61,407 bases of DNA, from the NCBI GenBank assembly GCA_902609285.1, contig CACLRL010000006.1, forward strand, positions 1 through 61,407, given 5' to 3'. Position 1 is the stretch's first letter. Each line of letters opens with the position of its first letter. The DNA is from an uncultured Candidatus Actinomarina sp. Its GTDB lineage: Bacteria; Actinomycetota; Acidimicrobiia; Actinomarinales; Actinomarinaceae. The notes below the pieces were generated by a model that worked only from the letters and a program-made list of their open reading frames with translations, did no database searches and was not told the DNA's origin. This document shows positions 4,233-60,648 of this stretch, in pieces. A program made the translations under genes and the position numbers.

Positions 4233-5056
4233 CAGACGTAAAAAAAACGTATAAAAATTATGTTCATGGTAAATTCGTTAGATCTGAATCTGGAAAAGTT
4301 TATTCAATTGATTTAAAAGATGAAAAATATGAGATTCCTTTAACTTCAAAAAAAGATTTAAGGGATGCGGTTACATCTTCTAAAGAAGGATTTAAAAATT
4401 GGAACCAATTAACGATGTATAATAGATCTCAAATTCTCTACAGATTATCAGAAATGATTGAGGGAAATAAAGATAGTTATATTTCTTTATTACAAGATCA
4501 TGGATTATCTAAACTTGATTCAAAAAATGATATCAATCATGCAATAGAGACAATCGTTTGGTATGCAGGTTTTGTTGATAAATGGGAGCAATTAACTGGT
4601 AATCTGAACCCTGTAGCTGGTCAATATTTCAACATTTCTCATCAGGAAGCTATTGGTGTTACATTTACGCTAAGTCCAAATTCAATGTCACTAAATGAAT
4701 TAGTAAAATCAATTCTTCCTGCATTGACTGTTGGTTGCTCTGTTATCAATTTTTCAGATAAAAATGCTGTCATTGCATTGAAGTTATCTGAGGAAGTTAA
4801 CAATTCTGACTTTCCATCAGGCAGCATCAATCTTATATCAGGTAAATTTGAAAATATTATTGAAGACGTTGGAGGTCATGTTGAGATTAAACATGCAGCA
4901 ATTTATGAGGATATTTCAAAAAAATCAAAAGAGGTTCTTGGTCAAAAAGGATCGGAATCTATCAAAAGGATTTCTTTACTACCTTCAATGAGTGGGTTAA
5001 GCTCAATTCTCCCTTTTATTGAAACAAAAACAGTTTGGCACCCCAAAGGTAAATAA
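4229..5056 (+). CDS. ALDH-like protein lacking the catalytic domain (pseudo-ALDH)
   Basis: 275 aa; start overlaps the previous stop (ATGA), so translation is probably coupled. The sequence follows the cofactor-binding half of an aldehyde dehydrogenase: YVHGKFV near the N-terminus, a helical ALDH-like stretch (DLRDAVTSSKEGFKNW), ILPALTVGCSVINFS and FPSGSINLISG. The oxyanion-motif position reads TLSPNSMS instead of PWNFP. There is no ELGGK motif and no catalytic Cys, and the protein ends where the catalytic domain would start. It is therefore unlikely to be an enzyme alone. The C-terminal ALDH-like domain of ALDH16 proteins also lacks the catalytic Cys, so this may be that domain encoded separately. 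No sign of decay such as stops or frameshifts. Confidence 0.75.
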   Translation: MTDVKKTYKNYVHGKFVRSESGKVYSIDLKDEKYEIPLTSKKDLRDAVTSSKEGFKNWNQLTMYNRSQILYRLSEMIEGNKDSYISLLQDHGLSKLDSKNDINHAIETIVWYAGFVDKWEQLTGNLNPVAGQYFNISHQEAIGVTFTLSPNSMSLNELVKSILPALTVGCSVINFSDKNAVIALKLSEEVNNSDFPSGSINLISGKFENIIEDVGGHVEIKHAAIYEDISKKSKEVLGQKGSESIKRISLLPSMSGLSSILPFIETKTVWHPKGK

Positions 5057-42105: not shown

Positions 42106-42124
42106 TTAGATAAAAAATTATTTT

Positions 42125-42156
42125 GATCGGGGCTCGCAATGGGCCCCGATTTTTTT
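42125..42156 (+). terminator. Intrinsic terminator between binding-protein and permease genes
   Basis: ATCGGGGC (42126-42133) pairs with GCCCCGAT (42143-42150) around a 9-nt loop, followed by seven T. This is by far the most G/C-rich hairpin in the window. It lies 20 nt after the binding-protein stop and 12 nt before the permease ATG, so partial read-through must supply the permeases. Confidence 0.85.
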
Positions 42157-42167
42157 GTGATATATTT

Positions 42168-46393: not shown

Positions 46394-48325
46394 ATGAGCA
46401 AAATACAAGAATTCCTAAAAAACCAAGAAAAATCAGTTATGAGTATTGTTGAAGGTAAAACAATTATTGATTATTTAAACAATAATGCAGAAGAGTCACC
46501 TGATTACCCTGCTTTAAATACCCCAATCAATAATGAATATACAGGATGGGATTCTATTTCTTGGTCAGAATATCAAGAAACAGTTCACAATCTTGCTTCA
46601 GGACTTATTGATATTGGTCTACAAGCTGAAGACAATGCTTTTATTGTTGCAAATAATGTAAAAGAGCATTTTATTTCAGATCTTGGAATCATGCATGCAG
46701 GTGCAGTTCCCTCTACAATCTATAAACAACTTAAATCAGGACAAATCGAATACATCTCCAATCTACTTGAAGCAAAAGTAGCTTTTGTTGGTGATGCAGA
46801 GCTATTTACTGAAGTCAATAAAGCAAAAGATAATTGTCCAGATATGAAGTACATCATAATGATTGAAGATTTTGATCAATATAAAGATTTAGATTACGTG
46901 TTAAGTTATCAAGATCTTATTGAAAAGGGTAAAAAAATTAATGCAGAAAGTAAATCAGAATTAGAAGCAAGAATGGAATCTGTAAAACCAGATTCACTTG
47001 CATGTTTAATTTTTACATCAGGGACAACTGGAAATCCTAAGGGCGTTATGCTTACCCATGAGAATATATTATTTACCATTCAGAGCTTGATAGAGCAATC
47101 GGTAAGTTTAGGAACTAATCCTAGAATTGTTTCTTATTTACCTATGGCCCATATTGCAGCAAGATTAACAGATCATTATCAATCAATTTTTAGAAAAGGT
47201 CAATTATTTCCAGTCCCAGTTCTTGAGGACATGGCTACAGCCCTACCAACTATTAAACCAACTCTCTTTTTCGCAGTTCCTCGGGTTTGGGAAAGATTTC
47301 AATCAGGTTTAATTAATAAAATAAACGAATCAGATAAAAAAGATTTGGCTTTAAGAGCCATTGATAATGGATTAGAAAGAGTTGAATATGAGCAAAGAGG
47401 TGAGACACCACCTTTAGGAATAAGAATTAAAGATGCAATATTTAACAAGCTTGTTTTTGAACGATCATTTAAAGTTGGGTTGGGTCTTGATAATTCTGAA
47501 GTATTCATTACTGCCGCAGCACCTATGAATCCAGAGGTTCAAAAATGGTTTCATGCAATTCATATTGATGTCGCAGAAGTATATGGAATGACAGAAGATA
47601 CAGGACCTGCAACATTTTGTGTTCCAAATTTTGCAAATAATTACTTCCAAAATCTTATGAGAGCCAATGATTTACCTATTCCAGATGTAATGAATCCAAT
47701 TGGTAAAGTTGGTATGCCTATTATGGGTACAGAAATAAAAGTTCTAGATGATGGTGAGTTGTGCATCAAAGGTAAACACGTTGCAAAAGGATATTATAAA
47801 GCAGAAGAAGAAACAAAAGCTGCATTTGATAATGATGGATGGCTTCATACAGGAGATTTAGCCGAGATTGACGAAAACGGTTTTGCAAAAATAATTGGAA
47901 GAAAAAAGGAAATTATTATTACTTCTGGTGGCAAAAACATTGCACCTGTTGAATTAGAAAATCTAATTAAGACACATGAGTTAATAGGCCAAATTTGCAT
48001 GGTAGGAGATGGAAAGAAATTTTTAAGTGCTTTAATTGTTCTTGATGGCGATGGTGGTGCTGAAAAATGGGCTAATGAAAATGGAGTTGATTACAACATT
48101 GAAACTATGTCAAAAAACGAAAAAGTCTTATCAGCTATACAAGAGCATGTTGATCAGTCAAATAGTAAAGTTGCAAATGTTCAACAAATTAAAAAATTTA
48201 CCCTACTGTCAAGTGAATGGACTGATAGTAGTGGCGAGTTAACACCATCTCTCAAATTAAAAAGACATGTTGTTGCGGAGAGATATGAAAACGAAATTGA
48301 AGCAATGTATGAGGAGGCAAAATAA
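46394..48325 (+). CDS. Long-chain acyl-CoA synthetase (AMP-forming)
   Basis: 643 aa ANL-superfamily ligase of FadD15/ACSL type. The P-loop is LIFTSGTTGNPKGVMLTHEN (~residue 205). YLPMAHIAARLTDHY, EVYGMTEDTGPATF, the hinge GWLHTGDLAEIDENGFAKI and GRKKEIIITSGGKNIAPVEL follow. Activates a fatty or other carboxylic acid to its CoA ester. GTGGAGA before ATG 46394 is a good ribosome site. First gene of an operon with an SDR (one-base overlap) and an acyl-CoA dehydrogenase. Confidence 0.93.
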   Translation: MSKIQEFLKNQEKSVMSIVEGKTIIDYLNNNAEESPDYPALNTPINNEYTGWDSISWSEYQETVHNLASGLIDIGLQAEDNAFIVANNVKEHFISDLGIMHAGAVPSTIYKQLKSGQIEYISNLLEAKVAFVGDAELFTEVNKAKDNCPDMKYIIMIEDFDQYKDLDYVLSYQDLIEKGKKINAESKSELEARMESVKPDSLACLIFTSGTTGNPKGVMLTHENILFTIQSLIEQSVSLGTNPRIVSYLPMAHIAARLTDHYQSIFRKGQLFPVPVLEDMATALPTIKPTLFFAVPRVWERFQSGLINKINESDKKDLALRAIDNGLERVEYEQRGETPPLGIRIKDAIFNKLVFERSFKVGLGLDNSEVFITAAAPMNPEVQKWFHAIHIDVAEVYGMTEDTGPATFCVPNFANNYFQNLMRANDLPIPDVMNPIGKVGMPIMGTEIKVLDDGELCIKGKHVAKGYYKAEEETKAAFDNDGWLHTGDLAEIDENGFAKIIGRKKEIIITSGGKNIAPVELENLIKTHELIGQICMVGDGKKFLSALIVLDGDGGAEKWANENGVDYNIETMSKNEKVLSAIQEHVDQSNSKVANVQQIKKFTLLSSEWTDSSGELTPSLKLKRHVVAERYENEIEAMYEEAK

Positions 48326-49227
48326 TGGCTGATGTTAGTTTCGAAAATAGAGTTGTAATTGTTACTGGAGCTGGAAATGGACTTGGAAAAGCTTATGCCT
48401 TAGAACTTGGAAAAAGAGGTGCAAAAGTTGTTGTTAATGACTTGGGTGGTGCTGTTGATGGTTCTGGATCTGGTAATTCTCCTGCTGATGATGTTGTAAA
48501 TGAAATTATCGAAAATGGTGGAGAAGCAGTGGCAAACTATGATTCGGTAGCAACTAAAGATGGTGGAGAGTCAATTGTCCAGACCGCAGTTGATAGTTTC
48601 GGTACTGTAGATGCTGTTATTAACAATGCAGGAATTCTAAGAGATAAGAGTTTTGCAAATATGACTGAAGAAGAATTTTCATTAATTATAGAAGTTCATT
48701 TGAAAGGAACATATTTCGTAACACAACCTGCATTTAAGATTATGAAAGAGAATAATTATGGAAGAATTGTAAATGTTGCATCACCATCGGGCATTTTTGG
48801 TAATTTTGGCCAAACAAATTATGGAGCAGCAAAGATGGGAATTGTTGGATTAACAAATGTCTTAGCTATTGAAGGTGCAAAATATAATATTAAAGTTAAC
48901 GTTATAGCACCTACTGCATATACAAGAATGACAGAAGCTCTTCTTCCAGAAGATGTGGGAAAACTTTTTAGCGCAGAACTTGTTACTCCAATGGTTACAT
49001 ATCTAGCATCTGAAGCTTGCGAACCAACACATGAAATTTTTGGTGTTGCAGCTGGCAGATTTGCAAGAATCGGCATTATTACACATGAAGGATATGTAAA
49101 TACAGAAGCTACCGCAGAAGACATTGCAAGCAATATTGAGGAAATTAGAACAATTACAGATGGTTCTTATCCTTTAAGCAATGAAGATGAGCTCATGCTT
49201 ATACAAAAAGCTATTCAGGGAAATTAG
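48325..49227 (+). CDS. SDR dehydrogenase of the HSD17B4 / 3-hydroxyacyl-CoA type
   Basis: 300 aa. RVVIVTGAGNGLGKAYALEL is the NAD loop; VVVNDLGGAVDGSGSGNSPA is a hallmark of the (3R)-hydroxyacyl-CoA dehydrogenase part of peroxisomal multifunctional enzyme 2. NNAGILRDKSF follows, with catalytic Ser in VNVASPSG and Tyr-x3-Lys in NYGAAKMG (~residue 170). Likely oxidises a 3-hydroxyacyl-CoA in beta-oxidation with the neighbouring acyl-CoA synthetase and dehydrogenase. A MaoC-type hydratase at 56644 could give its (R)-substrate. Confidence 0.9.
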   Translation: MADVSFENRVVIVTGAGNGLGKAYALELGKRGAKVVVNDLGGAVDGSGSGNSPADDVVNEIIENGGEAVANYDSVATKDGGESIVQTAVDSFGTVDAVINNAGILRDKSFANMTEEEFSLIIEVHLKGTYFVTQPAFKIMKENNYGRIVNVASPSGIFGNFGQTNYGAAKMGIVGLTNVLAIEGAKYNIKVNVIAPTAYTRMTEALLPEDVGKLFSAELVTPMVTYLASEACEPTHEIFGVAAGRFARIGIITHEGYVNTEATAEDIASNIEEIRTITDGSYPLSNEDELMLIQKAIQGN

Positions 49228-49246
49228 TACCTCAAGTTTTATGGTG

Positions 49247-49252
49247 TATAAT
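49247..49252 (+). promoter_or_regulatory. Candidate -10 of the acyl-CoA dehydrogenase gene (leaderless)
   Basis: Perfect TATAAT followed by 5 nt and ATG 49258, within the 30-nt gap after the SDR stop. No Shine-Dalgarno. Suggests this gene has its own promoter. Confidence 0.45.
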
Positions 49253-49257
49253 TTTAT

Positions 49258-50475
49258 ATGGTAAAAACTGAGACTAAACCATTAGATTCTGAGGAATTAG
49301 TTTTAAACAGATTACAAGAATTAGTTGATTTTCGAAAAGATGATCAAGACATTAAAGAATTTTGGGCAAAGCAATTTGATTTAGGACTTGCTTGGGTTCA
49401 TTTTCCTGAAGGTGCAGGAGGATTAAACGTTAATCCAAAATATCAATTATTAGTTAATGAAACTCTTCGAAAAGAAGGTATCTCAACAAATAATCGCATT
49501 GCTAATCTTCTTGGAATTGGCATGGGAGCGCCAACTATTACTGAATATGGAACTCAAGAACAAATCGATAAGTATTTAAAACCGATGTTTACAGCAGAAG
49601 AAATTTGGTGTCAATTGTTCTCTGAGCCAGGATCAGGTTCCGATTTAGCTAGTTTGTCAACAAAAGCAGTGGACGATGGTGACGGGTATATAGTAAATGG
49701 ACAAAAAGTTTGGACAACATTAGGACATCTTTCAAAATGGGGATTATTAGTTACAAGAACTGATCCAGATGTTCCAAAGCATAGAGGACTAACATTTTTT
49801 ATCGTTGATATGGAATCTGAAGGTGTCGAAGTAAGACCTTTAAGACAAATAACTGGTGAAGCAGAATTTAACGAAGTTTATTTTACGGATGTAAAAATTC
49901 CTAAAGAGAATGTTCTTGGAGAAGTAGGTGATGGATGGCGAGTCTCTCTAGCAATTTTAATGAATGAAAGAGTTGCTATTGGAGGAAATGTAAGACCAAG
50001 AGGAAGTGGTGCACCAGGACATTTAGTTCAATTATGGAAAGATCGCGAACTAGATGATCCCGTTACGAAAGATAAACTTATGGAATTATGGATACAACAA
50101 GAAGCTGTAAGGTTAACCAATTTGAGAGCATCTGAACTTAGAGAAAAAGGAACACCTGGTCCAGAGGGTTCGACAAGCAAACTTCATGAAGCTGAAATAA
50201 ATAAGGCATCCTACGCTTTTGGTATGGAAATGTTAGGAAATGATGGATTATTATTCCCAAGAGGATATGAGCTATCTCAACCTGAATTAAATTTTGATAA
50301 TGATTCTTACGGTTTTACAGATACACAAAGTTTATTTTTAAGATCCCGAGCAAACTCTATTGAAGGCGGCACATCAGAAATCATGAGAAACATTATTGCA
50401 GAAAGAGTTTTAGGTCTTCCAAGCGAACCAAAATTAGATAAAGATAAAGCTTGGAAAGATTTGCCAAGATCTTAA
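49258..50475 (+). CDS. Acyl-CoA dehydrogenase
   Basis: 405 aa FAD enzyme introducing the 2,3 double bond in an acyl-CoA. QLFSEPGSGSDLASLSTKAV and GQKVWTTLGHLSKWGLLVTR are the flavin-contacting blocks; the C-terminal NSIEGGTSEIMRNIIAERVL carries the position of the catalytic Glu and nucleotide-binding end. The preceding region EAVRLTNLRASELREKG is the usual helical core. Belongs with the upstream acyl-CoA synthetase and SDR. Ends 4 nt into the convergent thiN gene. Confidence 0.93.
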   Translation: MVKTETKPLDSEELVLNRLQELVDFRKDDQDIKEFWAKQFDLGLAWVHFPEGAGGLNVNPKYQLLVNETLRKEGISTNNRIANLLGIGMGAPTITEYGTQEQIDKYLKPMFTAEEIWCQLFSEPGSGSDLASLSTKAVDDGDGYIVNGQKVWTTLGHLSKWGLLVTRTDPDVPKHRGLTFFIVDMESEGVEVRPLRQITGEAEFNEVYFTDVKIPKENVLGEVGDGWRVSLAILMNERVAIGGNVRPRGSGAPGHLVQLWKDRELDDPVTKDKLMELWIQQEAVRLTNLRASELREKGTPGPEGSTSKLHEAEINKASYAFGMEMLGNDGLLFPRGYELSQPELNFDNDSYGFTDTQSLFLRSRANSIEGGTSEIMRNIIAERVLGLPSEPKLDKDKAWKDLPRS

Positions 50476-51089
50476 TTGTTATAAATTAAGCAGAACTTTC
50501 CATCTTCAACCGTAACTTCTATATCATTATCGATTGATATATTTCTTAGAGTAAGAGATTTACCAAATTCAATATTTTCATTATCAAGGTTCCATTGCGC
50601 TCCAGAGATATTTAAATTTTTCAAATTTGTAAATGGAAGGATACTAAACTCAACATTATTTCCGATTGCAATTTTTTTTGTATTAGGAATAAGTACTGTC
50701 TGATCCTTATGTATCCAACAAATTTGCTGGTCTTCTTGAAAGCTAATAATTACAGTTAAAACAGAAAACAAATGGTCAATTTCCCCATATTCTCCACCAA
50801 TAATTGTTATATCCTTAATTTCTTTATCCATTACGTGTTTTATAGCAAGCTCAAAATCTGTTTCATTTTTGTTAGTGTCATATTTTAAAATTTGAACTTC
50901 ATCCTTTTCTGCTCTTTTAATTGTTTTCTCATCTATTGAATCAAGATCACCAATAATTAAATCTGGTTTTAAAAATAATTTGTAAGCTTGTTCTGTTCCT
51001 GAATCTACAGCAACTATAAGATCATAATTTCCTAGCTGATCTCTTTTTGTAGAATTAAGACCACCGTTTACTATAAGTGCATTTTTCAT
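50472..51089 (-). CDS. thiN: Thiamine pyrophosphokinase
   Basis: About 205 aa; transfers pyrophosphate from ATP to thiamine, making ThDP from salvaged thiamine. ALIVNGGLNSTKRDQL at the N-terminus, then IVAVDSGTEQAYKLFLKPD, IIGDLDSIDEKTI (Asp-rich metal site), YDTNKNETDFELAIKH and IIGGEYGEIDHLFSVL are family blocks. ATG 51089 chosen; GTG 51095 is possible. 23 nt after the ATP-grasp gene on the same strand. Confidence 0.9.
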   Translation of the reverse strand: MKNALIVNGGLNSTKRDQLGNYDLIVAVDSGTEQAYKLFLKPDLIIGDLDSIDEKTIKRAEKDEVQILKYDTNKNETDFELAIKHVMDKEIKDITIIGGEYGEIDHLFSVLTVIISFQEDQQICWIHKDQTVLIPNTKKIAIGNNVEFSILPFTNLKNLNISGAQWNLDNENIEFGKSLTLRNISIDNDIEVTVEDGKFCLIYNN

Positions 51090-51112
51090 TTTCACTTGAA
51101 GGTTATCATAAA

Positions 51113-52294
51113 TTATTTAATAATCGGCATTGAAGTGTTCATTGCATTTTTTAATGCATTTAAAACTAAAGCTTTTTCATTTGCTTGAGAAAACACAAAA
51201 CCTAAGTATTTATCACCAAAAGGTGGTTCTAACAAATCTGAGTTCTCGAAAACAGTTATTTCAACTGCCGATACATTATCAATGTTTTCCAATTCATCTT
51301 GATTAATAGAAACAAATTTACCTGTTTGAGGAGTTGGAAGCATGAGTACGCCAACATAATTACTAAGGAGTTCAACAGGTTTTAATTCATCATATAAAAA
51401 GGCATGTAATGTAATTTCTTCAAGAGATACTTTAAACAAGCCAAAACTTAGACATTTTGAACAAAGGCCACCTATCATTCTTGGATTAATTTCAATAATG
51501 AAAATATTTTCATCAAGTATTTTAAATTCAACATGTACAGGCCCATTCTCAAGACCAATTTTTTTACAAGCATCATCAACTAATTCAACTATTTCATTTT
51601 GTAATTTTTCAGATAGTTCACTTGGGGTTATATAGATTGACTCTTCAAAGTAAGGTTCTTTGTATTCAATTGGCTTATCGAAAATTGTTATTTTATTTAA
51701 ATTAGAATTTATTAAGTTACCTTCTAATGCATATTCTTTACCATCTATATGTTGCTCGATAACCATTTCCCGATCTTCACAATCGTTCATTAAATTAATT
51801 ATGTAGTCTTTGTTTTTATTAAAATTATCTATTTTTAAAACACTTTTGCTTGCTGATCCAAAATTTGGTTTTAAAACTGATGTACCATGTTTTTCCACAA
51901 ACATTGCAATATCTTCAAGACTTTTTATAACCATATTTTCTGCTTTTATATTCGATATTAAATTAAAAGTATTTCTTGAATTAAACTTATTCATTGAATG
52001 CTCTATGGCAAATAATTTATTTCCTTTAGCATCTAATAAATCAACTAGATAACCAGCAAATTTTAATGCACTATGGTCAACTGGAAGTACGTGAGTTATT
52101 TTATTAAGTTTTATTAATGTTTCATTGCTTATTTTTTCAGTAAAATTTTGAATAATTACAGTATCACCAAATTGACTTGATACTTGATCGCTGTCTGTAA
52201 TTACCAAAAAATCGATACCTAATCTTTCTGCAGTTTGTACAAAATCATTGGATTTATAGCTATTTTCTGGGATTACTAACAATAGTTTATTCAT
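51113..52294 (-). CDS. ATP-grasp ligase of unknown substrate
   Basis: 393 aa. An N-terminal Rossmann-like part (LLLVIPENSYKSNDFVQTAE) is followed by an ATP-grasp domain: Lys in GTSVLKPNFGSASKSVL, MVIEQHIDGKEYALEGNL, VHVEFKILDENIFIIEINPR with the metal Glu/Asn, then GGLCSKCLSFG. The C-terminal ~100 residues are like those of amino-acid ligases (carnosine synthase / L-amino acid ligase type). So it probably joins a carboxylate and an amine with ATP. It could also be a biotin-carboxylase-like relative. No neighbour reveals the product. Confidence 0.75.
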   Translation of the reverse strand: MNKLLLVIPENSYKSNDFVQTAERLGIDFLVITDSDQVSSQFGDTVIIQNFTEKISNETLIKLNKITHVLPVDHSALKFAGYLVDLLDAKGNKLFAIEHSMNKFNSRNTFNLISNIKAENMVIKSLEDIAMFVEKHGTSVLKPNFGSASKSVLKIDNFNKNKDYIINLMNDCEDREMVIEQHIDGKEYALEGNLINSNLNKITIFDKPIEYKEPYFEESIYITPSELSEKLQNEIVELVDDACKKIGLENGPVHVEFKILDENIFIIEINPRMIGGLCSKCLSFGLFKVSLEEITLHAFLYDELKPVELLSNYVGVLMLPTPQTGKFVSINQDELENIDNVSAVEITVFENSDLLEPPFGDKYLGFVFSQANEKALVLNALKNAMNTSMPIIK

Positions 52295-52321
52295 ATTTAT
52301 TTACACATATCTTGAACTTAC

Positions 52322-52327
52322 TAATAT
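52322..52327 (+). promoter_or_regulatory. Candidate -10 of the two-domain Nfu gene (leaderless)
   Basis: TAATAT followed by exactly 7 nt and ATG 52335, no Shine-Dalgarno. TTACAC at 52301 is a possible -35 with a short spacer. Confidence 0.45.
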
Positions 52328-52334
52328 TAAGTAT

Positions 52335-52967
52335 ATGACTGATGAGTTTAAATTCAATATTGGAGACAGTGCTGTTAGTAAGATTCTTGAGTTAAAAGAA
52401 CAAGAACCTGGAGATAAAGATTATGCTCTATTTTTACAGATTGACGGTGTACAAGGAAATCAATATACATATGATCTTAGTTTTTTAGATCTTGAACAAG
52501 CTAGACCAGATGATAAACGAGTTGATTTTGGTGATTTATCTGTAATTATAGCCAGTAAAGATGTTGATAACTTTAATGGTGCAGTATTAGAAATATCTGA
52601 TGATCCAAATGCACCAGGACTCACAATGGACAACCCAAATACTCCAAGTCCTTCAATGGTAGGTAACCCTGAAGATTTACCTGAACTTACTGGTGAACTT
52701 GCAGAGAAGGTACAAACAGTTCTTGAAAGCCAAATTAATCCAGCAATAGCATCTCACGGAGGAAAGGCATCTTTAGTTGGTATTGAAGGTCAAGATGTTT
52801 ATCTTAGACTTGGTGGGGGCTGTCAAGGATGTGGAATGGCTCAAGTAACACTTACTCAAGGAATAGAAACAGCTTTACGAGATGCTGTACCTGAAATAGG
52901 AAATATTATTGATGCAACTGATCACGCTTCAGGAAATAATCCGTATTTCGAATCGTCTAAAAAATAA
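52335..52967 (+). CDS. nfuA: NfuA-like Fe-S carrier (degenerate A-type domain + Nfu domain)
   Basis: 210 aa. Residues ~1-95 follow an A-type carrier fold (FNIGDSAVSKILELKEQEPG) but have no cysteines, as in NfuA. A Pro/Asn-rich linker follows, then a C-terminal Nfu domain (VLESQINPAIASHGGKASLV) with cluster-binding CxxC in LGGGCQGCGMAQVTLTQGI. Delivers Fe-S clusters to target proteins. The dehydratase of this region (53939) would be one plausible client, an inference from proximity only. Confidence 0.9.
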   Translation: MTDEFKFNIGDSAVSKILELKEQEPGDKDYALFLQIDGVQGNQYTYDLSFLDLEQARPDDKRVDFGDLSVIIASKDVDNFNGAVLEISDDPNAPGLTMDNPNTPSPSMVGNPEDLPELTGELAEKVQTVLESQINPAIASHGGKASLVGIEGQDVYLRLGGGCQGCGMAQVTLTQGIETALRDAVPEIGNIIDATDHASGNNPYFESSKK

Positions 52968-53939
52968 TTAAAAACTGATTACTGTTTTCCCAATATTTTT
53001 TCTAGATAGAAAGTTTTCAAGTGCTAAAGAAGTCTCTTCTATTGGATGAATATTTTTTGGTTGTATCACTAGTTTATCCTTTTCAATAAATTCAATTAAT
53101 TCTTTAAAGTCTTCAGCTGTCTCTTCAGGAGAGGTTGTAGTCCATCTTCCCCACCAAACTCCAACTATTGAGACTCCCTTAACAAGAGTTAAATTTAATG
53201 GAATTTTTGGTATGTTGCCATCTGTAAAACCTATTACAAGCAATCTTCCATTCCATGCTGTTGCTCTCAATGCTTGTTCTGTTACATCTCCTCCAACAGG
53301 ATCCATAACAACATCTACTCCTTTTCCATCAGTAAGTTCTTTTACTGTTTCCTTCAGTTCAACTTGATCATATCTAATAATTTCATCTGCCCCCAATGAC
53401 TTAACATATTCTGCTTTTTCATCACTGCCAACTGCACATATAGTTTTGACTCCCATTATTTTCGCTAATTGTATCGTCGCCGTCCCTATACCCCCTGACG
53501 CACCAAGAACAAGAAGAGACTCATTCTTTTGAATATTTGCTCTTCTTTTGAGTGCGTAATAACAAGTTCCATAATTTATAGGCAAGCTTGCCCCAGCCAT
53601 TGAATCGACTTTTTTTGATACAGGTATAACAAGATTCTTATCTACAGAAACATATTCAGAAAAACCTCCTATTGGCGGCAAAGCTATTACTTTGCTCCCA
53701 ATCTTAAGATCAACATCATCTCCAGTTTCTTCAACATATCCACAAACTTCATTACCAGGAGTAAAAGGTGGGTCCATTACTATTTGATATTTACCTTGAA
53801 CCATTAAAGCATCTGGAAAATTCACACCTGCTGCTTGTACTTTTACTAGTACTTCATTTTTACTTGGCTTTGGTGTTTCAATATCTTTTATCTCAAGTAG
53901 ATTAGGATCACCTATTTTTGTACAAACAACAGCTTTCAT
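52968..53939 (-). CDS. NADPH:quinone oxidoreductase-type MDR dehydrogenase
   Basis: 323 aa zinc-free medium-chain dehydrogenase/reductase. KAVVCTKIGDPNLLEIKDI and VQAAGVNFPDALMVQGKY open the protein; the NADP loop is VLGASGGIGTATIQLAKIMG (~residue 143). The structural zinc cysteines are absent. Its ATG overlaps the stop of the dehydratase gene (TGATG), so the two are translated together. It may reduce an enoyl-CoA such as crotonyl-CoA, or a quinone; homologues do either. ATG 53939 used. Confidence 0.87.
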   Translation of the reverse strand: MKAVVCTKIGDPNLLEIKDIETPKPSKNEVLVKVQAAGVNFPDALMVQGKYQIVMDPPFTPGNEVCGYVEETGDDVDLKIGSKVIALPPIGGFSEYVSVDKNLVIPVSKKVDSMAGASLPINYGTCYYALKRRANIQKNESLLVLGASGGIGTATIQLAKIMGVKTICAVGSDEKAEYVKSLGADEIIRYDQVELKETVKELTDGKGVDVVMDPVGGDVTEQALRATAWNGRLLVIGFTDGNIPKIPLNLTLVKGVSIVGVWWGRWTTTSPEETAEDFKELIEFIEKDKLVIQPKNIHPIEETSLALENFLSRKNIGKTVISF

Positions 53940-55393
53940 CAATCTTCTCTTTCGATTATTCCAGAGAGCTTCTTTGCAAAGTTTTTCTTTTCTTCAATAT
54001 CTACTTTTCTAGAAATTTGTATTCTTTGAGCTTGTGGTGATCCAGCACCATGCATTGATTCAGTTAAATAAGCAACAGCATTTCTTCCTAATGTCATATT
54101 TTCAATAAGTCGTAACATGCTTACACGATCTTCGGTATTTATATCTTCTTTGCCTTTCAAGTATTTCAATAAGTTTGGTGACATCTCACTTTCATTTATG
54201 TCAATACCTGAAGGCATGGATGCAACTAGTCCACCAGCTAAATCTTGTGCCAACCTTCCTATCTCATAAGTTTCTTTTGTAACATGCTGTTTGCAGACAT
54301 TTGCTAATAAATCGTCATTTATATAATTTCCACTCTTTGTTTTTTTTCCTTGCAAAGATGAAGCAATTCCCGTCGCATAAATAGTTTCATTTAATTTATT
54401 CATTTCAATTAATTTTTCTTTAATATGTGATTTATCTTCAACACCGTTATATTCGGCAATACTTGCTGCCGCCCCTATCATTACATCCCCAACACCTGAT
54501 TTACATACATACGATCTTCGATGATAACATGTAAATCTTTCGACAAGCATTGCAGCAAAATCATATTCACCATTCATAAATATAAATTCGTTTGGAATGA
54601 ACACATTATCAAAAATAACCATTGCTTCTTGACCAGCAAAATATTTATTTCCAACATCATATTCACCTGGCTCCATACTTCTGGTGTCACAGGATTGTCG
54701 TCCATAGATGTACGTAATACCTTCTGTCTCAATAGGCAACGCTCCTACAATTGCATAATCTTTATCATTTTCAGTAAGCCTTAAAGTTGGCATAACAACC
54801 ATCCAATGAGAATTTATACATCCTGTTTGATGAGCTTTAGCTCCTGAGACATAAACACCATTATCATCTCTATTAACAACTCTCAAATATAAATCTTGAT
54901 CCGCTTGTTGGTGAGGAGGTTTTGATCTATCACCTTTAACATCAGTCATAGCTCCACCAATCACAAAATTACCCTCATGCATTTTTGTTAAAAAATTGAT
55001 AAATTTGTCATGGTAATTTGTTTTATATTTTTCATCAATCTCATAGGTCACTGAATGAAGGGCATTGAATGCATCCATTCCCACACATCTTTGGAAACAC
55101 GTACCAGTTAACTGACCAAGTTTCCTTTGCATTTCATTTTGCATAAATAAATCTTCACTGCTGTTCGCAATATGTAAAAATCGATTAATTGGCTCATTTG
55201 TATAAGGTGAAATAGTTGTAGCCAAATCAGGGTCTCTATCTGCTAATGCATAAGTTTCAGCCATAGCTTCAATACTTGGTTTGATAATTGGATGAGTGAG
55301 AGGATCTTTTACTAGTTCACCCATGAGATAGATAGTTAGATTTCTATTTTTCAGAGAGTTAATATAATCTTGTTTTGTACGAATTTTGTTCAT
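53939..55393 (-). CDS. 4-hydroxybutyryl-CoA dehydratase / vinylacetyl-CoA isomerase-like flavoprotein
   Basis: 484 aa, family of HpaB hydroxylase and 4-hydroxybutyryl-CoA dehydratase (AbfD). The [4Fe-4S] ligands that separate dehydratases from hydroxylases are present: Cys99 and Cys103 in GTCFQRCVGMDA, the same numbers as in the Clostridium enzyme, plus His291 and Cys297 in CYHRRSYVCKSGVGD. The His-Cys spacing is one residue shorter than in AbfD as I recall it. Other blocks: GAMTDVKGDRSKPPHQQ, YVSGAKAHQTG and EMSPNLLKYLKG. The reaction would be 4-hydroxybutyryl-CoA to crotonyl-CoA by a ketyl radical. Heads a two-gene unit; TATAAT lies 5 nt upstream. Confidence 0.85.
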   Translation of the reverse strand: MNKIRTKQDYINSLKNRNLTIYLMGELVKDPLTHPIIKPSIEAMAETYALADRDPDLATTISPYTNEPINRFLHIANSSEDLFMQNEMQRKLGQLTGTCFQRCVGMDAFNALHSVTYEIDEKYKTNYHDKFINFLTKMHEGNFVIGGAMTDVKGDRSKPPHQQADQDLYLRVVNRDDNGVYVSGAKAHQTGCINSHWMVVMPTLRLTENDKDYAIVGALPIETEGITYIYGRQSCDTRSMEPGEYDVGNKYFAGQEAMVIFDNVFIPNEFIFMNGEYDFAAMLVERFTCYHRRSYVCKSGVGDVMIGAAASIAEYNGVEDKSHIKEKLIEMNKLNETIYATGIASSLQGKKTKSGNYINDDLLANVCKQHVTKETYEIGRLAQDLAGGLVASMPSGIDINESEMSPNLLKYLKGKEDINTEDRVSMLRLIENMTLGRNAVAYLTESMHGAGSPQAQRIQISRKVDIEEKKNFAKKLSGIIERED

Positions 55394-55398
55394 ACATC

Positions 55399-55404
55399 AT
55401 TATA
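55399..55404 (-). promoter_or_regulatory. Candidate -10 of the dehydratase gene (leaderless)
   Basis: On the minus strand a perfect TATAAT, 5 nt, then ATG 55393. The 54-nt gap before the thiolase gene has no Shine-Dalgarno, so the dehydratase-reductase pair probably has its own promoter. Confidence 0.45.
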
Positions 55405-55447
55405 AATTGTAAGTTTGTGATTTAAAATCTAGTTAGAAATTTATAAT

Positions 55448-56626
55448 TTAAATAACTTCAAATAACCCTGCTGCACCCATGCCACCGCCAACACACATAG
55501 TTACAACAACGAATTTTGCGTTTCTTCTCTTACCTTCCATTAATGCGTGCATTGTCATTCTTGCACCAGTCATTCCATATGGATGGCCTATTGAGATTGA
55601 GCCGCCATTGACATTGTAAATACTGTTATCGATACCAAGTTCGTCTCTACAGTATAAAGTTTGAACAGCAAACGCTTCATTTAGCTCCCAAAGGTCTATA
55701 TCTTCAATTTTCAAATTGAATTTATTCAATAAATCTGGAACCGCATACACAGGACCTATTCCCATTTCCTCAGGTGCTAATGCTGATACAGTCATACCTC
55801 TGTAATATCCAAGTGGTTCTAGGCTTCTTTTTTCTGCTTCGCTAGCTTCCATTAGGACAACTGAAGCTGAGCCATCTGATAATTGAGAGGCATTGCCGGC
55901 TGTGATAAACTTTCCTTCTCCGTAAACCGGAGGAAGTGAAGATAAACCGTCTAAATTTGTCTCTGGTCTATTTCCCTCATCTTTTGTTAATTCAACCTCT
56001 TGGTCAGAAACTTCACCAGTTTCTTTATTTTTGACACTCTTAGTTGTAGTTGTTGAAATAATCTCATCATCAAACTTGTTACTTTCTTGAGCTGCTGCAG
56101 TTCTTTGTTGACTTTGTAGGGAATATTCATCTTGATATTCTCTCGAAATATTATATTTTTCAGCAACAAAATCAGCAGTTTCAATCATGGGCATGTAAGC
56201 GTTATCGGCAAGTTTTACAACATTTGGGTCTGGAGCAAATCTCAATTCAGCAGTTTGAACTAATGATATAGATTCGACACCACCAGCAACAACAACATTC
56301 ATATTGTCTGTCATTATTTGTTTCGCACCGGTAGCGATGGCCATCAGGCCGGAAGAACATTGTCTATCTATAGTCATTCCCGGGACTGTAATTGGTAATC
56401 CTGCTGCAATTCCACTCAGTCTTCCAATGTTTAATGCTTGCGACCCTTGTTGTTGAGCACATCCCATAATGACATCTTCAATCTCATTAGGATCAACTTT
56501 TGCTCTTTCGACTGCTTCTTTAATTGAATAAGAACCTAATGTTGGAGCGTCTGTTTTGTTATAAGCTCCACGATAAGCTTTTCCTATAGGTGTTCTTGCT
56601 GCTGATACAATTACTGCTTCTCTCAT
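55448..56626 (-). CDS. Acetyl-CoA acetyltransferase / 3-ketoacyl-CoA thiolase
   Basis: 392 aa. [19 protein letters not shown] start; nucleophile Cys in [20 protein letters not shown] (~residue 89); NEAFAVQ; the His in [15 protein letters not shown]; and the final Cys in [16 protein letters not shown]. Cleaves (or joins) acetyl-CoA units, the last step of the acyl-CoA pathway in this region. 17 nt after the MaoC hydratase gene on the same strand. Confidence 0.94.
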
Positions 56627-56643
56627 TTTTATTATTCTTTCTT

Positions 56644-57105
56644 TTATTCTGTAACTATAAATAAAGTTAAAGGCTCAGCAATTGCTGCTGGTTTATCCTT
56701 ACCTTCTATTTCAATTGTAGCAGTATGTTTTACTAACCATCTACCAGCTTTTTTGTATTGAACATCTGACAAAACAAATCTTCCTCTTATTTTACTATTT
56801 ACAGGGACAGCTTCCATGAAACGAACCTTATCAAGACCATAATTTATTGCCATTTGTATATTTTCTGGCATAACAGTTTTGTCGACTGATAAGAAAGTCA
56901 CCATACTCAACGTCAAGAATCCATGAGCTATTGTAGATCCCCATGGAGTACTTTTAGCCATTTCTTCATCAACATGAATAAACTGATGATCGTTAGTACC
57001 TTCAGCAAACTGATTAATTCTTTCTTGATTTATTTCAAACCAGTCTGAAACACCAACTTCCTTACCGATATATTTTTCCATTTCTTCTGCAGGTACAATC
57101 GTCAT
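56644..57105 (-). CDS. MaoC-like (R)-enoyl-CoA hydratase
   Basis: 153 aa hotdog protein. The hydratase-2 motif is clear: [20 protein letters not shown] with Asp and His, then [13 protein letters not shown]. Adds water to a 2-enoyl-CoA to give the (R)-3-hydroxyacyl-CoA. Strong ribosome site GAGGAGA, and its ATG overlaps the stop of the kinase gene (ATGA). Sits between the LvaA-like kinase and the thiolase, which fits hydration of the enoyl-CoA made by that branch. Confidence 0.9.
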
Positions 57106-58118
57106 ATTATCTCCTCTAATAAATTTTCATTTGCAGCTTTGTTTGCAAACTTTATTGTACTGTTCTTAAATGATTCTATTTCATTTTCATTTGTTTTTCC
57201 ATACGATCCCATTGAATACCTGATATAAACTCCTTCCATTATCATTGCATGTTTCCAAAAAGATAATCTTGCGTAAAATTCAATATCACTTAAATCTAGA
57301 TCTGAATTATTTAAATACAAAGCTATTACATCCTTACGTGTTGGAAATCCTTCAGATAGGGTAGGAGAATAAATAAAAGGTGAGTCTTTCTCCTGTTTTG
57401 TATTCCAAGATGCTATTACTGTACCCATATCTGCAAGTGGATCTCCTAGAGTACAAAGTTCCCAATCCAGAACGGCAGCTACTTGATTATCCTTTACTCG
57501 TACATTATCTAATCTGTAATCTCCATGAACTATTCCAACAGTTTGTTGAGAGGGAATATTATCTAGTAATAATTTTGTAGCAATTTCTAATTCTTTTATT
57601 TCTCTAACTTTTTGAGATTGAAATTGTTTATTCCATCTATTTATTTGACGCTCAACATATTCCTCATGTTTTCCTAAATCATTTAATTCTGAACTTATCA
57701 CGTCAAAATTGTGTATTTCAGAAAGAGCTTTAATAAATGATTTCGTAATTGTATTTTTTTGAATTTCATTAAATTCATCAGCTATTTGGTTATTTGCTAT
57801 GGTCTCACCCTCAATAAATTCCATAATATAAAAATCATCTACGGATAATTCTTTCTTATTGTATAAATACATAGGTTTTGGGACCCTTAAGCCATTTTCA
57901 CTTAGAACTTTTAATATTTTGTATTCCCTGCCCATATTGTGTGCAGATTCTAACTTAAGTCCAAATGGAGGTCTTCTCAATACAAATGAGTTTGCATCAT
58001 CAAAAATTTTGAATGTAATATTTGATCTTCCTACGTTAAACTGTTCAAAGTTAAAATCTTCTGAAATGTTTATAACTGAAGAGATATATTTTTTAAGTTT
58101 TTCACTAAAAAAGTCCAT
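57102..58118 (-). CDS. LvaA/ACAD10-11-type phosphotransferase (4-hydroxyacyl-CoA kinase candidate)
   Basis: 338 aa APH-fold kinase. FNVGRSNITFKIFDDANSFV and LRRPPFGLKLESAHNMGRE match the N-terminal lobe of ACAD10/11 kinase domains; the catalytic loop is HGDYRLDN (His198, Asp200, Asn205) and the metal Asp218 is in AVLDWELCTLGDPLAD. In Pseudomonas putida LvaA phosphorylates 4-hydroxyacyl-CoA, and LvaC (an acyl-CoA dehydrogenase homologue) then removes the phosphate. The partner gene lies divergently at 58176. TAATAT 8 nt before the ATG suggests a leaderless promoter. First gene of the kinase-MaoC-thiolase unit. Confidence 0.85.
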   Translation of the reverse strand: MDFFSEKLKKYISSVINISEDFNFEQFNVGRSNITFKIFDDANSFVLRRPPFGLKLESAHNMGREYKILKVLSENGLRVPKPMYLYNKKELSVDDFYIMEFIEGETIANNQIADEFNEIQKNTITKSFIKALSEIHNFDVISSELNDLGKHEEYVERQINRWNKQFQSQKVREIKELEIATKLLLDNIPSQQTVGIVHGDYRLDNVRVKDNQVAAVLDWELCTLGDPLADMGTVIASWNTKQEKDSPFIYSPTLSEGFPTRKDVIALYLNNSDLDLSDIEFYARLSFWKHAMIMEGVYIRYSMGSYGKTNENEIESFKNSTIKFANKAANENLLEEII

Positions 58119-58126
58119 TTAAGAAC

Positions 58127-58132
58127 ATATTA
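58127..58132 (-). promoter_or_regulatory. Candidate -10 of the kinase-MaoC-thiolase unit
   Basis: TAATAT on the minus strand, then 8 nt, then ATG 58118, no Shine-Dalgarno. Shares the 57-nt divergent gap with the promoter of the dehydrogenase gene, so the two units could be switched together. Confidence 0.4.
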
Positions 58133-58165
58133 ATGAAAGTTTTTTGGTTCAGTTGTTTAAATTGA

Positions 58166-58171
58166 TACAAT
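58166..58171 (+). promoter_or_regulatory. Candidate -10 of the LvaC-like dehydrogenase gene
   Basis: TACAAT lies 4 nt before ATG 58176 and exactly 7 nt before the second ATG at 58179. This favours 58179 as a leaderless start. Confidence 0.4.
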
Positions 58172-58175
58172 AAGA

Positions 58176-59384
58176 ATGATGGATTTTAATTTTTCTAAAG
58201 AATCACTTGAATTACAGGATAAGCTAAAAACTTTTTTCGTAGATCATATTTATCCGAATGAAGACCATTACGAGAACGCAATTATTGACTCTGGTGATCC
58301 ATTGCATATTCCAGAAATCCTAAGTGAACTCAAATCAAAAGCTAAAAAGGAAAATTTATGGAATTTATTTCTCCCTGATAACGAATATGGATATGGGTTA
58401 TCAAATGTTGATTATGCACCATTGGCTGAGATAACCGGTCATAATTGGTGGGCTCCAGAGGTATTTAATTGTTCTGCACCTGATACAGGAAATATGGAAA
58501 TTTTAGCTGAGTTTGGAACATCAGAACAAAAAAAACAATGGCTTGAACCACTTCTTGAAGGAGAAATAAGATCATGCTTTGCAATGACCGAACCAAATGT
58601 GGCTTCCTCTGATGCTACCAATATAGGAAGTTCAATTGTCAGTGACGGAGATAATTATGTCATCAATGGTCGAAAGTGGTGGACTTCAAATGCTATAAAT
58701 CCAAATGCAAAAATATGTATTTTTATGGGTGTTACTAACCCTGATAGCCCTCCATATCAAAGGCAAAGTCAGGTATTAGTACCAATGGATAGCGAAGGAC
58801 TTTCAATAATCAGACCAATGCAAGTATTTGGATATGACGATGGATACACAGGACACCCAGAGCTTTTATTTGAAAATGTTGTTGTTCCAAAATCCAACAT
58901 CATTGGGGGAGAAGGAATGGGATTTAAAATAGCTCAAGCAAGACTTGGACCTGGAAGAATACACCATTGCATGAGGGCTATAGGAATGGCAGAGAGAGCG
59001 TTATCTCTTATGATTGATCGCTCACTTGAAAGAGAAACATTTGGTCAAAAATTGGCTGAACAGGGCGTTATTCAAGATTGGATTGCTCGTTCAAGAATAA
59101 AAATTGAAGAAGCAAGGCTACTAACATTAAAAACTGCTTGGCTTATTGATACTGTTGGTAAAGAAGAAGCAAAAATTGAAATTTCATCTATAAAAGTATC
59201 TGTTGTTGAAGCAGCTTCCTATGTAATTGATAAAGCCATACAGACTCATGGTGCAATGGGGCTATCCCAAGACACTCCGTTGGCAAGAATGTCTGCTGGT
59301 GCTCGCGTATTAAGAATTGCAGATGGACCTGATGAAGTTCATTTGAGATCAATTGCGAAAAGAGAAATTAATAAACATAGGTAG
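58176..59384 (+). CDS. ACAD10/11- or LvaC-type acyl-CoA dehydrogenase homologue
   Basis: 402 aa. CFAMTEPNVASSDATNIGSS, NGRKWWTSNAINPNAKICIF, VFGYDDGYTGHPELLFENV and LGPGRIHHCMRAIGMAERAL are blocks I recognise from ACAD10/11. Near the end LRIADGPDEVHLRSIAKREI has Asp where the base Glu region of ordinary acyl-CoA dehydrogenases lies. Relatives remove phosphate from 4-phospho-acyl-CoA made by the adjacent kinase domain (fused in animals, separate in LvaA/LvaC). Start could be the second ATG, 58179. Followed after 2 nt by the 3-hydroxyacyl-CoA dehydrogenase gene. Confidence 0.9.
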   Translation: MMDFNFSKESLELQDKLKTFFVDHIYPNEDHYENAIIDSGDPLHIPEILSELKSKAKKENLWNLFLPDNEYGYGLSNVDYAPLAEITGHNWWAPEVFNCSAPDTGNMEILAEFGTSEQKKQWLEPLLEGEIRSCFAMTEPNVASSDATNIGSSIVSDGDNYVINGRKWWTSNAINPNAKICIFMGVTNPDSPPYQRQSQVLVPMDSEGLSIIRPMQVFGYDDGYTGHPELLFENVVVPKSNIIGGEGMGFKIAQARLGPGRIHHCMRAIGMAERALSLMIDRSLERETFGQKLAEQGVIQDWIARSRIKIEEARLLTLKTAWLIDTVGKEEAKIEISSIKVSVVEAASYVIDKAIQTHGAMGLSQDTPLARMSAGARVLRIADGPDEVHLRSIAKREINKHR

Positions 59385-59386
59385 TT

Positions 59387-60253
59387 ATGGAAAAAGTTGC
59401 TGTTATTGGTGGGGGACAAATGGGAAGCCAGATTGCTGCCTTATCGGCAATCTCTGGTCATGAAACTAGTATTTTTGATAACAATAAAGAATATCTCGAT
59501 AACAAATTAATATTTACAAAACAAAATATAGAAAACTTAGTTTCAAAAGACTTAATTCAAAAGGAAAGCTTAGATAATTTTAATAAAAATCTTAAAGTCT
59601 ATGATTCACTTGAAACTGTTGTAAAGGATAAAACATTCGTAATTGAAGCTGTTGTTGAAAGATTTGACGTAAAAAAAGATATCTTTGAAATTATTTCTAA
59701 CATTCTTGATGAAAATGTTGTTCTCGCGACAAATAGTTCATTCATAGCTGCATCAGAAATTGCGCAACATTGTAAATATCCAGAAAGATTTCTAAATATG
59801 CATTTCTTTTACCCTCCGTTAAGAATGGATCTTATTGAAATTTCATTCCCAGAATCTACAAAAAAAGAAGTAGTTGACAGGACAAAAGAACTTGGCAATT
59901 TGATGGGAAGAACAGTTATTACTTTAAATAAAGAAACGCCAGGTTTTATCGTAAACAGAATGCTAGGAGCTTTAGTTGATGAGGCTTATGAACTATATGA
60001 TGAAGGAATTGCCGACTTCAAAGATATAGACTTGGCCATTAAAAAGGGTTTAAATCATCCCTTAGGTCCGTTTGAATTAACTGATTACTCAGGCTTAGAT
60101 ATTAGTTATTATTCAAAACTTAAAATTTACAATGAGACAAAAAATCCAAAAGATAAGCCTAAAAAGTTTCTAGAAGAAAAAGTTAAAGATGGAAAATTAG
60201 GGGTAAAAACAGGAGAAGGTTTTTATTATTATGATAAACCTTCAAAATCTTGA
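59387..60253 (+). CDS. 3-hydroxyacyl-CoA (3-hydroxybutyryl-CoA) dehydrogenase
   Basis: 288 aa NAD(P) enzyme. VAVIGGGQMGSQIAALSAIS is the nucleotide loop. TNSSFIAASEIAQHCKYPER, MHFFYPPLRMDLIEI (catalytic His) and ETPGFIVNRMLGALVDEAYE follow, and GLNHPLGPFELTDYSGLDI in the C-terminal domain completes the family. Oxidises the 3-hydroxyacyl-CoA before thiolysis. Two nt after the LvaC-like gene. Ends overlapping the convergent flavoprotein gene by 25 nt. Confidence 0.94.
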   Translation: MEKVAVIGGGQMGSQIAALSAISGHETSIFDNNKEYLDNKLIFTKQNIENLVSKDLIQKESLDNFNKNLKVYDSLETVVKDKTFVIEAVVERFDVKKDIFEIISNILDENVVLATNSSFIAASEIAQHCKYPERFLNMHFFYPPLRMDLIEISFPESTKKEVVDRTKELGNLMGRTVITLNKETPGFIVNRMLGALVDEAYELYDEGIADFKDIDLAIKKGLNHPLGPFELTDYSGLDISYYSKLKIYNETKNPKDKPKKFLEEKVKDGKLGVKTGEGFYYYDKPSKS

Positions 60254-60648
60254 TCTTTAAGATTAAAAAAGAATTCTCTTTCAGCTTTTATTTTTAAAAC
60301 TATCCTTTCAGATTGAATTTCAAATGGGTAAGGTTTATCCCAATACTTATGTGACAGATCGTTAATATTTTTTAAAGCGTCATCACCTGTAATTTCACCA
60401 ACTACGACACCTCTAATTTCAACAAATTTAAACTCATTATCATGTTTCCAGATCATAACATTCACTCTTGGATCATCTTTTACATTTAGATATTTTCTCC
60501 GGTGAATTTCTGTATTTATTAATATATTTTCACCATCTGTATCAACCCACATAACATGTGTCTGAGGAGCACCGCTTTTAAAAAGTGTCGTTAAAGTTGC
60601 ATAATTTGGCTCTTTTGCCATTGCAATCGTTTTTTTATCTAATCCCAT
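60229..60648 (-). CDS. PPOX-class (F420- or FMN-dependent) small flavoprotein
   Basis: 139 aa split-barrel protein. NYATLTTLFKSGAPQTHVMW, ENILINTEIHRRKYLNVKDD and RVNVMIWKHDNEFKFVEIRG are typical of Rv1155-like F420-dependent family members; YWDKPYPF and the end motif follow. Probably binds F420 or FMN; the reductase substrate is unknown. The open frame upstream to 60726 overlaps dtd, so I set the start at ATG 60648, which has TATGAT 6 nt before it. Together with cofC it supports F420 use. Confidence 0.82.
   Translation of the reverse strand: MGLDKKTIAMAKEPNYATLTTLFKSGAPQTHVMWVDTDGENILINTEIHRRKYLNVKDDPRVNVMIWKHDNEFKFVEIRGVVVGEITGDDALKNINDLSHKYWDKPYPFEIQSERIVLKIKAEREFFFNLKDQDFEGLS

Follow-up and report, generated by a model that had tools for sequence, protein, structure and literature searches.

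An AbfD-type gene for 4-hydroxybutyryl-CoA dehydratase and a kinase-dehydrogenase gene pair of the LvaA/LvaC and ACAD10/11 type, two kinds of enzyme system predicted to remove the hydroxyl group of 4-hydroxyacyl-CoAs, lie side by side on contig CACLRL010000006.1 (assembly GCA_902609285.1) of an uncultured Candidatus Actinomarina sp. The window, meaning the whole stretch of DNA analysed, is 61,407 nucleotides long and one entire contig of a 928 kb genome that is 79% complete. Its G+C content is ~33%, and ~32.5% is given for the Actinomarinales in the text of PMC7771536. The named relatives whose AbfD is 91-96% identical to that of the window belong to Candidatus Actinomarina. The minus strand of the block carries abfD (53939..55393), a thiolase gene for an acetyl-CoA C-acyltransferase (55448..56626; TIGR01930, 422 bits, over the cut-off), a gene for a MaoC-type enoyl-CoA hydratase that, judging by its family, is probably R-specific (56644..57105; PF01575, 84 bits), and the kinase gene (57102..58118). 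Divergent from the kinase gene, and 57 bases away from it, the plus strand carries genes for an acyl-CoA dehydrogenase (ACAD; 58176..59384) and a 3-hydroxyacyl-CoA dehydrogenase (3HCDH; 59387..60253; PF02737/PF00725). These genes had been named in an earlier note on this DNA, and all of their open reading frames (ORFs) were confirmed in position and strand. Families were identified with NCBIfam and Pfam profiles and then by sequence comparison with the PDB.

The profiles alone give AbfD the generic name 'HpaB-like', and its finer identity comes from solved structures. The best PDB matches are 6vjr, named as a vinylacetyl-CoA delta-isomerase (722 bits, 66% identity), and 1u8v (545 bits, 54% identity), presumably the enzyme of C. 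aminobutyricum. All 12 residues that were checked are kept in the window protein (1u8v numbering), namely C99, C103, H292 and C299, which we take to be the ligands of the 4Fe-4S cluster, and R90, Q101, T190, E257, Y296, K300, E455 and A460, taken likewise to be active-site residues. The same 12 are identical in 55 of 55 relatives, which came from searches at the genus, class and phylum levels, and the earlier note, too, had given this enzyme Fe-S ligands. By alignment to 1u8v, the codons for C99 to C103 lie at 55085..55099 and those for H291 to C297 (H292 and C299 of 1u8v) at 54503..54523, both on the minus strand. AbfD is best known from fermentation or CO2 fixation, whereas here it is found in a surface-ocean actinobacterium, within a beta-oxidation locus.

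The ACAD, named only Acyl-CoA_dh by Pfam and NCBIfam, is 54% identical to the ACAD domain of mammalian ACAD11. Sequence comparison with the PDB places ACAD11 (8v3u) first at 440 bits, followed by three further chains at 404 bits or more, and the next match is a short-chain ACAD at 141 bits. Residues R626, R631, H634 and R637, the HCMR motif and D753 of ACAD11 are described as common to ACAD10/11 and LvaC and as needed for the ACAD step (text of PMC12440821). Their equivalents in the window protein are R256, R261, H264-C265-M266-R267 and D383 (signature R-R-HCMR-D); the segment RLGPGRIHHCMR, encoded at 58941..58976 on the plus strand, aligns with R626, R631 and HCMR 634-637. This signature is kept in all 26 genus loci that cover the residues, the contig of a 27th ending inside the gene.

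The kinase, for which the profiles return only the generic name APH, has the APH fold and is 36% identical to the kinase domain of ACAD11. Its PDB sequence matches are led by 9o56 (152 bits), the ACAD11 kinase domain (8v3v, 142 bits) and 3dxp (130 bits), after which the score falls to 28 bits (3ats). The residues tested against ACAD11 were the catalytic Asp and Asn, the Arg beside the alpha-C Glu, and Arg R176; R86 of the published numbering differs by two or three positions from the Arg-Glu pair in the printed ACAD11 chain and was mapped by motif. In the window kinase, R64, E65, R157, D200, N205 and D218 are conserved in all 27 genus loci and do not vary across nine aligned kinases, among them the two from Bacteroidota described below. 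An AlphaFold model of the protein (mean predicted local distance difference test score, pLDDT, 84) finds its best fold match in 3dxp (Z 29.4, root-mean-square deviation (rmsd) 3.2, 317 aligned) and matches the ACAD11 chain, which aligned in part, with Z 19.0 (rmsd 3.1, 229 aligned). Sequence and signature residues therefore agree with the LvaA/LvaC and ACAD10/11 assignment that had been proposed for the pair, and neither protein falls in a clade of unrelated characterised function. The enzyme is predicted to be a 4-hydroxyacyl-CoA kinase.

LvaA/LvaC and ACAD10/11 are described in PMC12440821 and PMC11342911. The catalytic and phosphate-contacting residues of ACAD10/ACAD11 are present in the Actinomarina proteins, but the mammalian enzymes are one fused chain and the Actinomarina locus encodes two proteins on opposite strands. 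The lva operon of Pseudomonas putida likewise has a kinase and ACAD pair (LvaA, LvaC) and has the LvaC signature residues in common with the window ACAD, a comparison made through ACAD11 only. Unlike the lva operon, the Actinomarina pair is divergent and belongs to a beta-oxidation locus, where its neighbours are abfD and the genes for thiolase, MaoC and 3HCDH. A levulinate-specific ligase was not identified among the window genes, whose ligase (46394-48325) is nearest to long-chain FadD, with no Lva query sequences used.

The block is part of a larger gene set. Directly upstream on the plus strand (46394-50475) lie genes for an AMP-forming acyl-CoA ligase nearest to FadD11-like long-chain types (46394..48325; PF00501 over the cut-off; best NCBIfam match FadD11, 375 bits, below its cut-off), a short-chain dehydrogenase/reductase (SDR) oxidoreductase (48325..49227; NCBIfam PRK07791, 259 bits, below its cut-off) and FadE, an acyl-CoA dehydrogenase of another type that is without the HCMR motif (49258..50475; PF02770/PF00441). 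On the other flank, adjoining abfD on the minus strand, is a gene for QOR, a PIG3-like medium-chain dehydrogenase/reductase (MDR) of the quinone-oxidoreductase type (52968..53942, ATG start at 53939; TIGR02824, 246 bits, below the cut-off of 297). The thiolase and 3HCDH of the block are the sole full-length members of their families found in each of six genus genomes searched (79-94% complete), in which other matches to these families are short and weak. Each of these genomes has four or five Acyl-CoA_dh_M matches, two crotonase genes and one to three AMP-ligases, and the ligase gene adjoins the block in six of six named Actinomarina loci. The region 46394-60253 thus contains the beta-oxidation set of the genome, with unrelated genes (TPK, ATP-grasp, NfuA) interspersed; TPK, ATP-grasp and DTD, as labels for flanking genes, are our reading of the sequences. 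The ligase would probably supply the acyl-CoA entry step of the locus, and the SDR is a candidate (3R)-hydroxyacyl-CoA dehydrogenase. The earlier note had described a 4-hydroxyacyl-CoA degradation module; the grouping of both dehydration gene types stands, but they form the core of a beta-oxidation locus and not a stand-alone module.

These observations probably describe the core of an Actinomarina beta-oxidation locus with two parallel entry routes that would clear the 4-hydroxyl of 4-hydroxyacyl-CoAs, a group that would otherwise block normal beta-oxidation. In one route, the kinase would use ATP to form a 4-phosphoacyl-CoA, from which the flavoenzyme of the ACAD11/LvaC type would eliminate phosphate to give a 2-enoyl-CoA. 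In the other, AbfD, a [4Fe-4S]-FAD enzyme working through a ketyl radical, would dehydrate 4-hydroxybutyryl-CoA to crotonyl-CoA. Both products could then be hydrated by MaoC or a crotonase, oxidised by 3HCDH or the SDR, and cleaved by the thiolase. From sequence we infer these reactions, the running of both routes in one cell, and the substrates, which would be 4-hydroxybutyrate for AbfD and secondary 4-hydroxyacyl-CoAs for the kinase pair. A division of labour between primary and secondary 4-hydroxyl groups is as likely as one route per chain length. A locus that holds both known solutions to the 4-hydroxyl problem offers a concrete and cheap test of what each is for.

Within the genus, the arrangement is stable. 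Among 35 genus genomes, the window's own included, 28 have AbfD (one cut by a contig end) and one has a 40-residue match only. The region was read in 28 genus relatives, 27 of them with AbfD, and in all 27 the kinase, ACAD, MaoC and thiolase genes stand beside abfD (one contig ends inside the ACAD gene and one starts inside abfD), the kinase and ACAD genes sit to one side of abfD as divergent neighbours. Related genomes keep the genes together; the earlier note had named the opposite outcome as one that would refute its reading. Unrelated flanking genes are equally syntenic, however (FadE, TPK, NfuA, F420 and DTD in 25-26 of 27 loci; ATP-grasp in 10 of 27), and genus conservation therefore shows retention and not specificity; genus-wide synteny alone is weak evidence.

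Evidence that is independent of genus synteny comes from Bacteroidota. Named AbfD loci from GTDB genomes were compared through the best 80 of 589 that were confirmed, comprising 6 from Actinomarina, 43 from other bacteria (including L165, counted as bacterial although it groups with archaea in the AbfD tree) and 31 from archaea. The block is present in all six Actinomarina loci. In two of the 43 other bacterial loci, from an uncultured Bacteroidetes (AG-390-P11; locus L162) and an uncultured Flavobacteriaceae (AC_MB531; locus L164), with genomes of 1.3 and 2.2 Mb, the ACAD, abfD and kinase genes are consecutive on one strand and 0-17 bases apart. The trio is preceded by MaoC and SDR genes (with a crotonase gene between in L162) and followed by two FadE-type genes, and the operons also include a TonB receptor and several SDRs (Pfam for L164). 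Sample series and neighbours suggest that both organisms are marine. The L164 ACAD has the HCMR motif and matches ACAD11 best (293 bits, against 145 for the first chain after four ACAD11-like ones), and the L164 kinase matches 9o56 at 307 bits and ACAD11 at 169 bits. More broadly, the full ACAD signature is present in all 42 ACAD rows matched in the 43 loci gathered for the ACAD tree, two of these rows being second copies of L162 and L164; one locus of that set (L241) gave no ACAD match.

The three-gene gathering has probably occurred twice, in Actinomarina and in Bacteroidota, as judged from the ACAD tree and from gene order. In the ACAD tree, the Actinomarina protein clusters with those of Actinomycetota relatives (95/93), the L162 and L164 proteins cluster with rows from the genomes of a Planctomycete and two Chloroflexi (100/100), and a single clade of Actinomarina and the two Bacteroidota is rejected (approximately unbiased test, p-AU 2e-98). 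The order of the trio also differs between the two groups. The AbfD trees are weakly resolved, and a test of one AbfD clade made up of Actinomarina plus the two Bacteroidota gives no rejection (p-AU 0.06); the case for two independent clusters is therefore built on the ACAD tree and gene order. In a large AbfD tree built by a quick method, with modest supports, Actinomarina lies near Gammaproteobacteria and apart from its class relatives. A common clade with those relatives is not rejected either (p-AU 0.2), and a horizontal origin of the Actinomarina AbfD is not claimed. For the 2.2 Mb genome (G461), the chance of abfD landing between a given neighbouring pair is about 1 in 2,000, assuming ~2,000 genes and a pair already together. 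A search of 395 genomes of its order found abfD in that genome alone, and no further operons.

In Actinomycetota outside the genus, the three genes occur in a few genomes. AbfD was found at E <=1e-100 in 31 of 396 genomes of a phylum sample, the window's own among them; five of the other 30 hold an ACAD11-type gene (E <=1e-60), the same five hold the kinase, and one further genome has a weak kinase match only. The five Actinomycetota whose AbfD is the most similar outside the genus hold all three genes, and in one genome (G203) kinase and ACAD form a divergent pair, as in the window. No other block gene was found in the stretches around AbfD in three class genomes, and no shared partner emerged among the abfD neighbours of class and phylum relatives, gene calling being crude in G+C-rich stretches; in one case (G056) a divergent AMP-ligase gene adjoins abfD.

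Several observations weigh against two entry routes at one locus. Within the genus, abfD is unmatched in six of 35 genomes and a remnant in one, although with completeness of 51-94% single absences mean little. One genome (G011, 89% complete) is without AbfD while the remainder of the locus is intact, with 20 bases separating the QOR ATG from the thiolase stop codon; the kinase pair can therefore stand without AbfD, the routes are not interdependent, and AbfD is an accessory part of the locus. In the phylum sample, no ACAD11-type gene was found in 25 of the 30 AbfD-bearing genomes outside the genus, and in the other five, which are drafts of many contigs, abfD lies on a different contig from kinase and ACAD. 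Among the best 80 AbfD loci, the kinase pair is near abfD in just two of the 33 other bacterial loci, out of 43, that had at least 3 kb on both sides. In favour of the two routes, an ACAD11-type gene (E <=1e-60) occurs somewhere in 30 of the 35 named bacterial genomes that were searched for it, all carrying AbfD of this type and chosen from 43 loci mostly for longer flanks, but this co-occurrence, counted in AbfD-bearing genomes without an AbfD-free baseline, is suggestive only. On a Rhodococcus plasmid, the gene after a kinase relative (33%) encodes an acyl-CoA dehydrogenase with no match to the window ACAD at E 1e-30, which shows that the kinase family is not always paired with the LvaC type. 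The window ligase is nearest to long-chain types (the second ligase of the window's genome, G000, was outside the classification), and an incomplete search turned up neither a short-chain 4-hydroxyacid ligase nor a CoA transferase.

A wider form of the two-route reading is possible, if rather doubtful. The two phyla of marine bacteria may have assembled independently a recurrent module for clearing gamma-hydroxyls, split by alcohol type, with AbfD taking the primary 4-hydroxyl of 4-hydroxybutyryl-CoA and the kinase and ACAD taking secondary 4-hydroxyls on longer chains, for oxidised or hydroxylated lipids and lactones. AbfD might then receive, for example, the last C4 unit of even-chain omega-hydroxy acids, or free 4-hydroxybutyrate. 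The second, separate gathering among Bacteroidota raises the likelihood of a common physiological role, and it may point to 4-hydroxy acids or gamma-lactones as a genuine pool of substrates in seawater.

It is unlikely, in comparison, that the block reflects passive clustering, in which a streamlined genome groups its acyl-CoA genes, and in which the substrates of AbfD and of the kinase pair are unrelated and share no more than their entry into beta-oxidation. The equal synteny of pathway-unrelated flanking genes, the absence of abfD alone in G011, and its placement on another contig in the five Actinomycetota relatives that hold all three genes would all be expected from such clustering, but it does not readily account for a consecutive trio, with an ACAD of separate origin, in the two Bacteroidota genomes.

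Phosphorylation of a different alcohol is also very unlikely. The kinase and ACAD might act on another hydroxylated acyl-CoA, such as one whose isoprenoid or steroid side chain bears a tertiary alcohol. The 25-hydroxy steroid kinase (9ft5, 9fsg; PMC8449060) has the same kinase fold and works on the same principle, an alcohol being phosphorylated for elimination. It is the second fold match of the kinase model (Z 25.9, rmsd 3.6, 325 aligned), above the partly aligned ACAD11, and the TonB receptor, two FadE and several SDRs of the Bacteroidota operons would suit complex lipids. Its identity to the window kinase in the structural alignment is 18%, however, and it is not among the six PDB sequence matches of that kinase, which is far closer in sequence to 9o56, ACAD11 and 3dxp (130-152 bits) and whose partner ACAD carries the full ACAD10/11 signature. 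That the chief role of AbfD is the delta3-delta2 (vinylacetyl-CoA) isomerisation of unsaturated intermediates, and not the dehydration of 4-hydroxybutyryl-CoA, is an equally improbable reading: AbfD-type enzymes have this second activity, the closest PDB entry (6vjr) is named for it and the locus is a general beta-oxidation locus, but all 12 cluster and active-site residues are kept in each of the 55 relatives checked and the genome holds two genes of the crotonase family, a common source of isomerases of this kind that lack an Fe-S cluster.

With regard to the literature, the term '4-hydroxybutyryl-CoA dehydratase' never occurs together with LvaA or ACAD11 in the open-access papers searched, which leave out most subscription papers, and it is absent from PMC12440821 and PMC11342911; the earlier suggestion that no locus combining both routes had been described holds to that extent. 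Candidatus Actinomarinales are presented as widespread in the epipelagic ocean and as an important player there (PMC7771536). The main text of that paper contains no fatty acid, acyl-CoA, beta-oxidation or hydroxybuty- term, so that the lipid side of the group seems little described. In the text of PMC12954392, Actinomarin- and 4-hydroxybutyr- terms are both present but unconnected, and in that of PMC12388393, the single open-access paper found to name both Actinomarina and acyl-CoA dehydrogenase, these two are unlinked. The presence of AbfD, a radical Fe-S enzyme, in the apparent heterotrophic lipid metabolism of a surface-ocean bacterium calls for caution before abfD genes of marine metagenomes are attributed to archaeal CO2 fixation.

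Relatives of these genes also occur on mobile DNA. Kinase relatives are common on plasmids (243 records), and in a Ruegeria plasmid record the next gene encodes an ACAD with the signature; a search of viral contigs with the kinase confirmed no relative. AbfD is found on seven plasmid records. On one of them, the conjugative Bradyrhizobium elkanii plasmid pK07G (locus L239, 1-10506), it lies near a lactonase-family gene, an SDR, an AMP-binding protein and xanthine-dehydrogenase-family subunits, a gene set that might be a lactone or 4-hydroxybutyrate route.

Further observations concern the surroundings of the block. In one genus genome (G028), abfD is a remnant with 38 aligned residues, and the kinase, ACAD and HAD genes are absent after MaoC on the contig. 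That abfD and the kinase pair had been lost together was suspected at first and then rejected: the genes that follow MaoC lie further downstream in G011 in reverse order, which an inversion explains, and the kinase gene may lie past the contig end. The apparent inversion (locus L041, 10350-16880) has its breakpoint between the MaoC and kinase genes in an otherwise syntenic genus. An NfuA-like gene for an Fe-S carrier (window 52335-52967) adjoins the abfD strand and is kept in G011 where AbfD is absent, and is therefore probably not AbfD-specific. The ATP-grasp-like gene, so read from its sequence, lies between TPK and NfuA (window 51113-52294) and occurs in the 10 genus loci counted above. Promoter-like sites in 52900-60300 are not enriched (26, against a mean of 31.6 in shuffles). 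Upstream of the beta-oxidation locus are MalE/MalF-like genes of a maltose-type ABC transporter (window 40804-43766). Two adjacent ORFs of the aldehyde-dehydrogenase family lie at window 2793-5056, the second of which (275 aa) matches the N-terminal half of the family only; the five other genus genomes that were searched show matches of both kinds.

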